Positions 49,099 to 53,569 of a stretch of 64,000 nt of DNA are shown here, piece after piece. The translations under genes were made by a program, and so were the position numbers. The notes below the pieces were generated by a model. The model saw nothing but the letters and a program-made list of their open reading frames with translations, was not told the origin of the DNA and ran no database searches. The DNA is taken from positions 62,001 to 126,000 of the forward strand of contig MWTC01000012.1 in assembly GCA_002066995.1 (NCBI GenBank), read 5' to 3'. Numbering within the stretch: the first letter of the stretch is position 1; each line of letters opens with the position of its first letter. The stretch is from Sphingobacteriales bacterium UTBCD1 (GTDB taxonomy: Bacteria > Bacteroidota > Bacteroidia > Chitinophagales > Chitinophagaceae).

Positions 49099-49126
49099 TA
49101 AAAGAGCCCTCCTAGTGAAAAGGCTC
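49099..49126 (-). terminator. terminator of the ileS-dksA-like operon
   Basis: A 5-bp stem (GAGCC 49104-49108 with GGCTC 49122-49126) with a 13-nt loop is followed on the minus strand by four T. It lies about 20 bp after the DksA-like gene stop. Confidence 0.5.
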
Positions 49127-49148: not shown

Positions 49149-49976
49149 CTATTTACTCATCATCTGCTTTGCTTCTATACTAAGCGTAGCATGAGGTACT
49201 GCACGAAGGCGTGCTTTATCAATTAATTTTCCGGTGACCCGGCAAATACCATAGGTCTTATTTTCGATCCTCATCAGCGCTTTCTCCAGGTGATCAATAA
49301 AAGTGATCTGGCGGCTGGCCATTTGACTTAATTGCTCTCTTTCCATACTGACGCTTCCGTCTTCCATAGTCATATAACGTGCCTCATCCATATCGCCTCC
49401 TTCATCTTTACGGGTGATCAGTCCCTGCAAATATGCAAGTTCTTTTTTTGCAGATTCAAGTTTTTTAAGAATTATCTCTTTGAATTCTGCAAGATCAGTA
49501 TCAGAATATCGCTGGGTAGGAGTACTCAACTCCAATCTCGATGGAGTATCCAAAATAGATTTTGTGAACTCCGGCTCATACTTAACAGAACTTGTGGTAG
49601 AAGTCTTGGGTATTACAACCTTGACAGGCTTAGGTGGTTCTTTTTTTATAATAGGCTTCACTTTGGGCTTTATCGACACCAGCGATTTGGGATCAACCCC
49701 TGATGTTTTCTTTACCGGTTGGGCAACGGCGGGTTTGGCGGCATGAACAGGTTTGGGCGCTGCTTTTACCGGCGCAGGTTTATGTGCAGGTTTTTGGGCT
49801 GCTGCTTTCTTTAATGCAGGTTTTACAACTTTTTTTGGAGTTGCTTTTTTAGGTGCGGCTTTTTTCATGGGTTTTTTTGCAGCTGGCTTTTTTGAAGCTG
49901 CTTTTTTGGCGGACTTAGCAGTTTTTTTTGCTGCGGGTTTCCCACCGGAATGGCGGGTTTGCTTTTTAGTTGCCAT
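49149..49976 (-). CDS. TraR/DksA family protein with histone H1-like lysine/alanine tail
   Basis: A 275-residue protein. Residues about 1-105 are Lys/Ala/Pro-rich repeats (AKKPA, PKKA-type) like eukaryotic histone H1 or bacterial HU-tail proteins. Residues about 155-275 match the coiled coil plus C-terminal region of DksA (DLAEFKEIILKKLESAKKEL). The zinc-finger region reads YGICRVTGKLIDKARLRAVP: one Cys remains of four, and the second pair is replaced (PHATLSIEA). The tail should bind DNA or RNA by charge. The DksA part may act on RNA polymerase without zinc. It starts 3 nt after ileS. Confidence 0.88.
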   Translation of the reverse strand: MATKKQTRHSGGKPAAKKTAKSAKKAASKKPAAKKPMKKAAPKKATPKKVVKPALKKAAAQKPAHKPAPVKAAPKPVHAAKPAVAQPVKKTSGVDPKSLVSIKPKVKPIIKKEPPKPVKVVIPKTSTTSSVKYEPEFTKSILDTPSRLELSTPTQRYSDTDLAEFKEIILKKLESAKKELAYLQGLITRKDEGGDMDEARYMTMEDGSVSMEREQLSQMASRQITFIDHLEKALMRIENKTYGICRVTGKLIDKARLRAVPHATLSIEAKQMMSK

Positions 49977-49979
49977 TTC

Positions 49980-52900
49980 TTAGCCTTTTTTTGAAACAAT
50001 TACTTTTAGTGAAACATCGTTGACTTCAATCTCTGTACCACCCTCAATTTCGGGCAATAATTCCAGATTATCTGCCAGAATTTCGGCGCAAATATAGGCT
50101 TTAAACTGTGCTAAAGATGCTTTGAGGCCATTATTTGCTGCCACTTTCACGACTATTCGATCGGTAAGGGCAAAACCACTGTCTTTACGTATGTTTTGGA
50201 TACGATTTACAAATTCCCGGGCATCGCCTTCCATTTTCAGATCCTGTGTAAGCGTAATATCCAAAGCTACCGTCAGGGTTCCTTTATTTGCCACCATCCA
50301 GCCGGGAATATCATCGCTGCTGATCTCCACTTCTGATAACTCAAGTGCCAAAGGTTCTCCATCAATGTCCAGGTTATAATGACCCTGTCTTTCTAATGTG
50401 AAAATATCTTCCTGGGTAAACCGGCCGAGAGCAGAAGTTACTGCTTTCATTTTCGGTCCTAATTTTTTTCCAAGGGCTATGAAATTAGGTTTAATCTTCT
50501 TTTGAATGAATGTATTATCAGATTCAAGATATTCGACCTCTTTTACATTCACTTCCGCTTTGATGAGATCTTCCACTTCATGCAATTGTTCTTTCATAGC
50601 CGGATTCAGCACCGGAATTAAAACTTTTTGTAATGGCTGACGAACTTTGATATTTACTTTTTTGCGGAGCGACAGAATTAATGAAGAAGCATCCTGTGCC
50701 AACTGCATTCTTTCTTCCAATAATTCATCAATGACCGATTTAGCGGCAACGGGAAAATCAACGTGATGAACTGAAGCGGCATGATATCTTCCCGTGATCC
50801 TGTTCAGGTTTTGGAAAATTGCGTCACTGAAAAACGGCGAAACCGGCGCCATCAGGCGAACTATTGTCTCCATGCATTCATACAAGGTCTGATAAGCACA
50901 AATTTTATCCTGCTCATATTCGCCTTTCCAGAACCTTCTTCGGCACAAGCGGACATACCAGTTGCTCAGGTGCTCATCTACAAAGTCCTCAATGGCACGG
51001 CCGGCCTGGGTCGGTTCATAATCATCCATATATTCATTTACTTTTTTCACCAATGAATTCAGTGAAGAAAGTATCCACCTGTCTATCTCAGGACGATCCC
51101 TGACCGGAATATATTTTTCTTTAAATGAAAACCCGTCCACGTTTGCATATAATGCAAAAAACTGGTAGGTATTATAAAGAGTTCCGAAAAATTTCCGTTG
51201 TACTTCTTTAATGCCATCGAGGTCAAACTTCATATTCTCCCAGGGGGAAGCATTGGTGATAAGATACCAGCGAGTAGCATCGGCACCATAAGTTTCAATT
51301 GTCTTAAAAGGATCAACCACATTACCCAGCCTCTTACTCATCTTGTTGCCTTTCTTATCCAGCACCAGGCCATTGGAAACACAGGTTTTATAAGCAACTG
51401 AATCAAAGACCAGGGCAGCAATGGCATGAAGCGTATAGAACCAGCCTCTTGTCTGGTCCACACCTTCTGCTATGAAATCAGCAGGGAAAGCTCCATCCCA
51501 GCCTTCTCTGAAGGGAAAAGGTGAACCTTCTTTAAGTTTAGCTTGATCCAGACCCCATTGTGCATAGGGCATCGCTCCGCTGTCAAACCATACATCGATC
51601 AGATCGGGGATCCGTGTCATGGGTTTCCCGGAATCACTTACCAAAATAATTTCATCAACAAAAGGTTTATGCAGATCAAGAATACCTTCATGCAAATAAT
51701 TTTCATTTACATCGCCTCCCAATTTTTGATTAGCCTTCCTGATCTCCGTATTTAATTCTTCAATAGAACTGATACATTTTTCTTCCTGATCATCTTCTGT
51801 TCTCCAGATTGGCAATGGAGTTCCCCAAAACCTGCTGCGGCTCAGGTTCCAGTCCACCATATTCTCCAGCCAGTTTCCAAATCTTCCCTCGCCGGTTGAT
51901 TTCGGTTTCCAGTTGATCGTTTTATTCAACTCCACCATACGGTCTTTCAGTGCAGTGGTTTTGATAAACCATGCATCCAACGGATAATACAAAACCGGTT
52001 TATCTGTTCTCCAGCAATGCGGATAGCTGTGTTCGTATTTCTCCACTTTGAAAGCACGGTTCTCTTTCTTCAGTTTTACGGCTATATCCACATTCACATC
52101 CACATAGTCCGGATCGTCTTTATAATTTTTCACATAGCGGTTGCTGAATTCACCCAGACCATCAATGAATTTTCCCTGTTTATCTACCATCGTCAATATG
52201 CCGATGTCATATTTCTTCCCGGCTTTATAGTCATCGGCGCCAAATGCCGGGGCGGTATGAACAATACCGGTACCGTCTTCCGTAGTTACAAAATCACCCA
52301 GCATTACTTTAAAGGCATTCGGATTATCGGTTTTATTAGCTTCATAAGGCAGTAGCTGTTCATAAGAGATTCCTTCAAGATCTTTCCCTTTGAATTCAGC
52401 AAGGACCTTCCAGGGAACGCCGCTGCCCGAAGCAAATGTTTTCGGATCTTTTGAAACAAGAACTACATAGTCTTCAAAATTCCCATTCTCATTTTCGGGT
52501 TTAAAATATTTTCCGGTCAAAGCTTTTGCGAGAATGACATTTACGGGGAGATGGGTGTAAGGATTAAACGTTTTTACCAGTACATAATCAATATTTGCTC
52601 CGACGGTCAATCCAAGATTGGAAGGAAGCGTCCAGGGTGTGGTAGTCCATGCCAGAAAGAAAACTTCGCCGTTATTTTTTTGAACTTCATAGATCCGGCT
52701 TTTTGCGATTGATAATGTTCCTCCTTCGGAGTGATCCGGGGAGGGCACTTTAAACATTGCCACGCAGCTCGTATCCTTCACATCCTTGTATGTTCCCGGC
52801 TGGTTCAGTTCATGTGAACTTAATCCGGTTCCTGCCGCAGGCGAATAGGGCTGAATGCTTACACTCTGGTACAACAGGCCTCTCTGGTACAACTGCTTCA

Positions 52901-53393
52901 GCAGCCACCAAAGTGTTTCAATGTATTCATTTTTAAAAGTGATGTACGGATCATCCAGGTCCACCCAATAACCCATTTTACGGGTCAGGTCATCCCACTT
53001 GTCTTTGTAACGAAGAACCGCCTCACGGCATTTTTGATTGTACTCTTCAACAGTGATCTTTTTCCCGATATCTTCTTTAGTGATTCCTAATTCTTTTTCC
53101 ACTCCCAATTCCACCGGCAGTCCATGAGTGTCCCATCCGCCTTTTCTTTTTACCTGAAAACCTTTCATGGTCTTGTAGCGACACACCAGGTCTTTCAGGG
53201 TTCTGGAAATAACGTGATGAATGCCGGGCATTCCGTTGGCGCTGGGCGGGCCTTCATAAAAAACAAAAGGCGTGGCCCCTTCTCTCAGGGAAACGCTTTT
53301 TTCAAAAGCATTGGTAGCCTGCCAGCGGGCAAGCATATCCTGCTCTATAGCCGGTAAATTCAACTGTGAAAATTCTTTGTATTTATTACCCAT
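49980..53393 (-). CDS. ileS: isoleucine--tRNA ligase
   Basis: An 1137-residue class I synthetase with an editing domain. The HIGH-like motif is PSANGMPGIHHVISRTL near residue 60 and the KMSKR loop (GNKMSKRLGNV) is near residue 683. Length and C-terminal extension are normal for the long Bacteroidota form. The frame opens at 53432, but MGNKYKEFSQ (ATG 53393) matches family starts. A hairpin lies just before this ATG. It is cotranscribed with the downstream DksA-like gene (3 nt spacing). Confidence 0.96.
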   Translation of the reverse strand: MGNKYKEFSQLNLPAIEQDMLARWQATNAFEKSVSLREGATPFVFYEGPPSANGMPGIHHVISRTLKDLVCRYKTMKGFQVKRKGGWDTHGLPVELGVEKELGITKEDIGKKITVEEYNQKCREAVLRYKDKWDDLTRKMGYWVDLDDPYITFKNEYIETLWWLLKQLYQRGLLYQSVSIQPYSPAAGTGLSSHELNQPGTYKDVKDTSCVAMFKVPSPDHSEGGTLSIAKSRIYEVQKNNGEVFFLAWTTTPWTLPSNLGLTVGANIDYVLVKTFNPYTHLPVNVILAKALTGKYFKPENENGNFEDYVVLVSKDPKTFASGSGVPWKVLAEFKGKDLEGISYEQLLPYEANKTDNPNAFKVMLGDFVTTEDGTGIVHTAPAFGADDYKAGKKYDIGILTMVDKQGKFIDGLGEFSNRYVKNYKDDPDYVDVNVDIAVKLKKENRAFKVEKYEHSYPHCWRTDKPVLYYPLDAWFIKTTALKDRMVELNKTINWKPKSTGEGRFGNWLENMVDWNLSRSRFWGTPLPIWRTEDDQEEKCISSIEELNTEIRKANQKLGGDVNENYLHEGILDLHKPFVDEIILVSDSGKPMTRIPDLIDVWFDSGAMPYAQWGLDQAKLKEGSPFPFREGWDGAFPADFIAEGVDQTRGWFYTLHAIAALVFDSVAYKTCVSNGLVLDKKGNKMSKRLGNVVDPFKTIETYGADATRWYLITNASPWENMKFDLDGIKEVQRKFFGTLYNTYQFFALYANVDGFSFKEKYIPVRDRPEIDRWILSSLNSLVKKVNEYMDDYEPTQAGRAIEDFVDEHLSNWYVRLCRRRFWKGEYEQDKICAYQTLYECMETIVRLMAPVSPFFSDAIFQNLNRITGRYHAASVHHVDFPVAAKSVIDELLEERMQLAQDASSLILSLRKKVNIKVRQPLQKVLIPVLNPAMKEQLHEVEDLIKAEVNVKEVEYLESDNTFIQKKIKPNFIALGKKLGPKMKAVTSALGRFTQEDIFTLERQGHYNLDIDGEPLALELSEVEISSDDIPGWMVANKGTLTVALDITLTQDLKMEGDAREFVNRIQNIRKDSGFALTDRIVVKVAANNGLKASLAQFKAYICAEILADNLELLPEIEGGTEIEVNDVSLKVIVSKKG

Positions 53394-53396
53394 TTC

Positions 53397-53413
53397 CAGA
53401 CTTAAAAAGTCTG
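53397..53413 (-). promoter_or_regulatory. hairpin immediately upstream of the ileS start codon
   Basis: CAGACTT at 53397-53403 and AAGTCTG at 53407-53413 form a perfect 7-bp stem with an AAA loop, ending 3 nt before the ileS ATG (53391-53393). On the minus strand it follows a near-match to the -7 element (TAACTTCG, complement at 53414-53421). It may be at the very 5' end of the mRNA and affect translation initiation. It is not a T-box. Confidence 0.4.
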
Positions 53414-53569
53414 CGAAGTTAAGAAAATTCACGGGCTAATTTGAGGAGAAAATGCTATTTATTCCTTAAGGAATGTGCCATTCATAGCAGATTCTTTCTA
53501 TGGTAACTGACCGGGATTGAAAAAAATCGTGTCATGCCCGTCACACCATTCATACTTACCTGAATGTAT

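Follow-up and report, generated by a model that had tools for sequence, protein, structure and literature searches.

The 64,000-nucleotide stretch of DNA that was analyzed here (the window) carries on its minus strand, directly behind ileS, a DksA-like gene encoding 275 residues (49149-49976(-)). The first-pass annotation had read it as a DksA homologue with a degenerate zinc finger and a histone H1-like N-terminal tail and had suggested that the neighbouring ileS could tie it to charging or stringent signals. The question raised by this locus is what a protein of such an architecture does. The translation can be divided into a Lys/Ala/Pro-rich tail (residues 1-90; 49707..49976, minus strand, as all the features of this locus), a linker rich in K, P, S and T (residues 91-156; 49509..49706) and the DksA core (residues 157-275; 49152..49508), which is followed by the stop codon (49149..49151). 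Upstream, ileS (49980..53432; Pfam tRNA-synt_1, Anticodon_1 and DUF5915) was indeed found as the neighbour and ends 3 nt before the ATG, and the two genes are probably co-transcribed and translationally coupled. An intrinsic-terminator-like hairpin lies 3′ of the dksA-like gene (49104..49126); it is a pattern match, and this pattern occurs at three sites in the window compared with 1.6 expected from shuffling.

The assignment to the DksA family was confirmed by profile and by fold. The protein matches PF01258 with 33.5 bits (cut-off 24.9), a family which all 46 aligned relatives match too, and stays below the thresholds of the NCBIfam DksA equivalogs NF033459 (47.6 of 105 bits) and TIGR02420 (42.6 of 115.5 bits). 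In the profile search of the genome no other protein exceeds the PF01258 cut-off. A second DksA with four cysteines was considered and rejected, since nothing of this kind lies above the cut-off and the single weak match reaches 12.9 bits (E 0.62). The protein is the only member of the DksA family detected in this genome.

The full-length AlphaFold2 model has a mean pLDDT of 65 with a disordered tail (block means of 46-55), and its best Foldseek match is DksA2 with an E-value of 2.1e-3, there being none at E up to 0.001. The VIA-align rows for this model are mostly unrelated coiled coils and were set aside. Of five models made for the core alone, the best has a mean pLDDT of 80 and the others have 71-74. 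The first eight Foldseek matches of the core model are all chains of the DksA family, with DksA2 at the top (E 6.8e-6; TM-scores of 0.75/0.79 against 4ijj_A), followed by E. coli DksA, free and bound to RNA polymerase, and the Chlamydia homologue. Helix 1 (residues 159-192; 49401..49502) and helix 2 (residues 207-241, with E205-D206 directly before it; 49254..49358), as delimited by AlphaFold2 and DSSP, belong to the antiparallel coiled coil, which the core model combines with the globular domain as in DksA. As far as the models go, the core thus folds as DksA and is nearest to the zinc-free DksA2.

The zinc-finger remnant (residues 242-270; 49167..49253) is predicted with block pLDDT values of 88-90 in the core model without a metal. 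The alignment to E. coli DksA places C245, T248, S266 and A269 opposite the ligands C114, C117, C135 and C138, so the protein has one cysteine of the four-cysteine site, as had been stated, and C245 is the sole ligand left. Three of the ligands are absent from the sequence itself, hence no structural model could restore them. We also considered whether the ligands are replaced from elsewhere in the protein. This was rejected: there is no second cysteine, and H262 is common to one-cysteine and four-cysteine members alike.

The phylum was sampled with 296 genomes, and 293 of them yielded a DksA relative. Distinct cores numbered 217 after those of less than 60 bits or 100 residues had been dropped, and relatives of the window protein are over-represented in this set. 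Of the 217, 191 have the ligand combination C-T-S-A, 13 have C-C-C-C and 13 have some other one. Ten loci had no core match, among them short second copies, several of which have four cysteines. The first cysteine, equivalent to C245, is invariant in all 217 cores though its partners are mostly gone. Some relatives have intermediate sites (C-C-S-Y, C-S-R-F) and Prevotella nigrescens has no ligand cysteine at all; in the latter (L250, outside the 217-core set) an Asp occupies the first position. In 48 of 55 coded families the main DksA copy has two or fewer zinc-site cysteines. Between three or more and two or fewer cysteines there were at least three changes on a tree of 138 rows, for which the ligand columns were dropped, the window's own family was thinned and further families were added; on a tree of 168 rows that retained the ligand columns there was one change between three or four cysteines and one. 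Both trees rest on 116-120 columns and have many open forks. These comparisons indicate that the loss of the zinc site is old and widespread; in the sampled phylum it is more common than retention, and this genome is no special case. Public records of the phylum label one-cysteine DksA proteins as C4-type zinc finger despite the loss of the site. Two such records, described as plasmids of Parabacteroides and Bacteroides (L248, L249), look like chromosomal pieces with ileS-dksA-lspA.

The survey also turned up several unusual copies. Family f23 has short extra copies of 110-132 amino acids with four cysteines beside other DksA-type copies (L145, L148, L152, L154, L155, L158, L159). In family f2 two DksA copies (L084, L094) carry a long acidic C-terminal extension, its charge opposite to that of the tail. 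At L261 and L270 a DksA-type zinc finger stands at the N-terminal end of a protein about 325 residues long, the remainder of which looks by motif like a PP2C/SpoIIE phosphatase. A contig labelled Phycisphaerales (L231) carries a Chitinophagaceae-like DksA and is probably a binning error.

Could such a core still work on RNA polymerase, and does it answer to ppGpp? In the β′ subunit of the same genome the rim helices are conserved, N680 and D684 are kept and K681 is replaced by Gln. For the DxxDxA tip of the coiled coil the alignment is uncertain: MAFFT sets D74 and A76 of E. coli DksA opposite E198 and V209, while a count back from R91 would assign these places to E205 and G207. Position 205 is E or D in 214 of the 217 cores. 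At the ppGpp binding site 2, R91, K98 and K139 of E. coli DksA coordinate the phosphates and R129 also contacts the nucleotide; when K98 or R129 is changed to alanine, ppGpp is no longer bound at this site, whereas the binding to the polymerase is kept (PMC7676912). The window protein does not have this complete residue set: R91 and K139 are kept as R222 and K270, as is R125, and K98 is replaced by H229 and R129 by V260. Because of these two replacements the sequence comparison does not support a classical stringent partnership. As to site 1, R362 and R417 of β′ are Lys in this genome.

That the protein is nevertheless a classical stringent factor, a ppGpp-dependent DksA tied to charging through ileS, we regard as improbable. 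This reading is consistent with the invariance of the R91 and K139 equivalents (217/217), with the retained N680 of β′, with the single RelA/SpoT protein of the genome, by which ppGpp can be made, and with ileS only 3 nt upstream. However, the K98 position is occupied by K in just seven of the 217 cores and the R129 position by R in none. The gene neighbourhood speaks against this reading as well. The ileS-dksA arrangement was seen in 120 of 144 loci examined and extends to Parabacteroides, Bacteroides and Prevotella, where the order is ileS-dksA-lspA. It is an old operon which says little about function, and since it is old and phylum-wide, the adjacency to ileS is by itself no charging or stringent signal.

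We now turn to the tail. Its first 90 residues contain 28 K, 24 A, 13 P and 1 R and neither D nor E, giving a net charge of +29; this composition agrees with the earlier description as H1-like. Within the window it is an outlier: among 92 stop-to-stop open reading frames of at least 100 amino acids, the best 90-residue stretch of this one reaches a K+A+P fraction of 0.72 and a net charge of +29, the next best ones 0.33 and +18, respectively. The estimate of about 105 residues for the Lys/Ala/Pro stretch has to be revised, in that the tail is real and ends at about residue 90, after which come the 66 residues of the linker with their milder composition and a net charge of +7. Tail and linker together place 156 residues ahead of the core, whose net charge is 0. 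Known histone-like families are not recognized: PF07432 (Hc1) is absent from the Pfam matches of the protein and has no match in the genome, both at E up to 1, and the histone H1-like profile NF038053 gives 11.6 of 80 bits, below its cut-off. A search of the genome for further tails of this type found none even with E-values of up to 10 admitted, a weak negative since the bias correction of HMMER may hide low-complexity matches.

Translation of the tail had been named as a point on which this description depends. A start downstream of the tail was rejected: ahead of the core there is just one further ATG, codon 37, which is itself inside the tail, and the frame is conserved throughout the family. 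GTG or TTG codons before the core are found at positions 100, 106, 142, 148 and 150. In three pairs within the genus the tail has a dN of 0.20-0.22 and a dS of 0.64-0.86 (dN/dS about 0.26-0.31), and in three same-genus genomes about half of the changes in the tail fall on third codon positions. These rates indicate purifying selection on the tail within the genus, although the signal may in part reflect mere upkeep of composition. Those relatives that carry a name (80 of 591 loci were kept) belong to the Chitinophagaceae, for example Terrimonas, Niastella, Segetibacter and Chitinophaga. The gene stands behind ileS in all 40 sampled genomes of the family, with a spacer of 2-10 nt in 36 of them, and the tail is intact in 39; in the fortieth (L054) a tail-like sequence sits in another frame. 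Comparison of the homologues gives a pre-core length of 131-369 residues with a median of 25% K among the tailed family sequences, which are net positive throughout, with a median of +0.21 per residue. In the linker a family motif surrounds Y133-x-P135 (YEPEFTKS(I/V)LD); in a set of 40 sequences from the family, Y133 and P135 are each conserved to at least 90%. In orthologues without a tail the start lies no more than about 25 residues from the core, and this linker motif is missing.

One might argue that the tail is low-complexity sequence which expanded nearly neutrally and has no function in itself, in view of its variable length, its absence from most of the sampled relatives outside the family and a dN about seven times that of the core within the genus. 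We consider this very improbable. The tail is intact in nearly all family genomes and keeps its positive charge; moreover, tails of similar composition originated repeatedly, and a distant family (f24, see below) keeps a fixed run of ten A at the junction of the tail and core frames.

The explanation which we favour, with moderate confidence, is that a zinc-independent DksA core sits in the secondary channel of RNA polymerase while the tail acts as an electrostatic tether to DNA, RNA or another polyanion. Since DksA2 works without zinc, a zinc-independent function is plausible. The core would dock in the secondary channel and modulate initiation or elongation, and, its K98 and R129 positions being His and Val, it would act largely without an E. 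coli-type ppGpp site 2. Judged from the composition, binding of the tail to nucleic acid is plausible; the disordered polycation would bind DNA, or RNA or another polyanion, electrostatically. In this way it could enrich the factor locally, on the nucleoid and close to polymerase engaged in transcription, akin to what has been reviewed for DdbA of Streptomyces. Possibly the tail acts on RNA, the ribosome or polyphosphate instead of DNA. As a full alternative, namely that the tail is a region binding RNA, ribosomes or polyphosphate, or a driver of condensation, and not a nucleoid anchor, this seems to us rather unlikely, though less so than the other alternatives considered so far. AlgP of P. 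aeruginosa, a DNA-binding protein with a KPAA-repeat tail alike in composition, associates with polyphosphate granules (PMC9239181), and composition alone cannot distinguish between the polyanions that a tail binds. On the other hand DdbA, which is the closest in architecture, is described as DNA-binding in reviews, and nothing in the analysis of the window favours RNA over DNA. Tethering to the nucleoid is directly testable, given that the tail recurs on a factor of the secondary channel.

This recurrence became visible on the 168-row tree, where 166 rows were scored and at least ten changes of the tail state were counted. Seven loci of tail-less or truncated appearance were left unscored for the tail. 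Three of them (L054, L225, L228) have it in other frames, by assembly error or real frameshift; of the others, L210 and L226 start where their contigs end, L212 contains a stretch of N and L232 is without an in-frame ATG. On these comparisons, tails arose or vanished repeatedly. As the tail changes its state at least ten times and the cysteines one to three times, loss of zinc and presence of a tail vary independently, and since most sampled relatives outside the family are tail-less, the tail is not needed for the function of the core.

Outside the window the tail is also found detached from the core frame. In family f24 (L273-L295; 23 genomes, seven genera) the reading frame of a K/A-rich tail follows ileS and differs from that of the DksA core. 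Where the two meet there is a run of 10 A in 22 genomes and of 11 A in one, that is, in all 23. One of these loci (L277) is truncated 18 nt ahead of the run, which leaves its tail unseen, L287 has part of the tail, and the tail of L286 contains one more break of the frame. As measured in 22 loci, the last base of the tail-frame stop codon lies 3-12 nt beyond the run, ahead of which the core frame is already open; joining the two frames needs a -1 shift. Lys codons of the tail outside the run are 563 AAG versus 82 AAA in 22 loci (148 AAA less 66 inside the runs). With such a preference for AAG, three consecutive AAA codons at one place in every genome of the family are unexpected. The AAA codons within the run follow from the run itself and carry no weight here; the codon use outside it does. 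Among 126 K-rich tails elsewhere (some loci counted twice) there is no run of 10 A and one of 9. Family f47 has the A10 junction in two of nine genomes (L307, L318) and continuous tails in seven; eight loci (f22, f48, f70, f71) without a core by motif were left out of this survey. Runs of A9-A10 are known for programmed slippage from dnaX (PMC3711429, in passages without mention of DksA).

The f24 junction is thus likely to represent programmed slippage, yielding both free and DksA-fused tails. Alternatively the DksA of this family could be made as a separate protein from starts in the linker, for which GTG or TTG codons are available there; yet in all 20 loci scored of the 23 the core frame stays open across the 85-185 codons of the linker, and in nine of these 20 no ATG of this frame occurs there. 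The substitution pattern of the linker also counts against slippage: in 11 of 11 pairs from f24, pN of the linker is below its pS, the two being close in several pairs, and the linker pS is below that of the core. On balance we give somewhat better than even chances to the wider reading that the DksA of the phylum is a modular histone-DksA whose tail was gained or lost at least ten times and whose tail frame is joined, in one distant family and in part of a second, by programmed transcriptional slippage or -1 frameshifting. The A10 junction would then be a natural case in which tail and factor may be made apart or joined from one gene. If this is true, a single gene yields a free histone-like peptide and a polymerase-bound DksA that carries the tail, in a ratio set by slippage of the very polymerase being regulated.

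How does the window protein compare with known systems? Myxococcus CarD is a regulator which joins an RNA polymerase-binding part to a basic HMGA/H1-like tail, with a different polymerase-binding domain. Among the papers on Bacteroidota DksA that were screened by title and opening of the abstract, with subscription journals largely outside the scope, none seemed to deal with the window protein, with its tail or with slippage in a gene for DksA; the DksA passage of PMC12596196 is an entry of the reference list. The closest PDB chain by sequence is Chlamydia trachomatis DksA (6ptg), which likewise has one cysteine (C, S, T, S); its solved chain of 132 residues, however, aligns over the core and contains no long tail. 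E. coli DksA (1tjl, 5vsw, 7khi) shares the coiled coil, the globular domain and R91, R125 and K139, whereas the window protein is without three of the four zinc cysteines, K98 and R129 and adds the long N-terminal tail.

Pseudomonas aeruginosa DksA2 (PDB 4ijj), the top Foldseek match of both models, has in common the zinc-independent fold. It functions like DksA with zinc being dispensable (PMC9239242) and can replace DksA1 (PMC9213440). It has two cysteines, however, and is expressed under zinc starvation beside the zinc-bearing DksA1 (PMC9213440), whereas the one-cysteine form of the window is the sole copy found and has a long tail. AlgP of Pseudomonas shares the H1-like disordered KPAA tail, which is needed for the even spacing of polyphosphate granules (PMC9239181), but there the tail is C-terminal and a DksA core is missing. 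In composition and domain order the window protein has the layout of DdbA (SCO2075) of Streptomyces, described in two reviews (PMC9043899, PMC11942623) as an N-terminal histone-H1-like DNA-binding part followed by a C-terminal DksA part. The comparison is one of architecture as reviewed; DdbA belongs to another phylum, and the window gene is without a zinc site and lies in an ileS operon. Thus an H1-like tail on DksA (DdbA) and a zinc-free DksA (DksA2) were each known already, and in the window protein both are combined in the only DksA detected in the genome.
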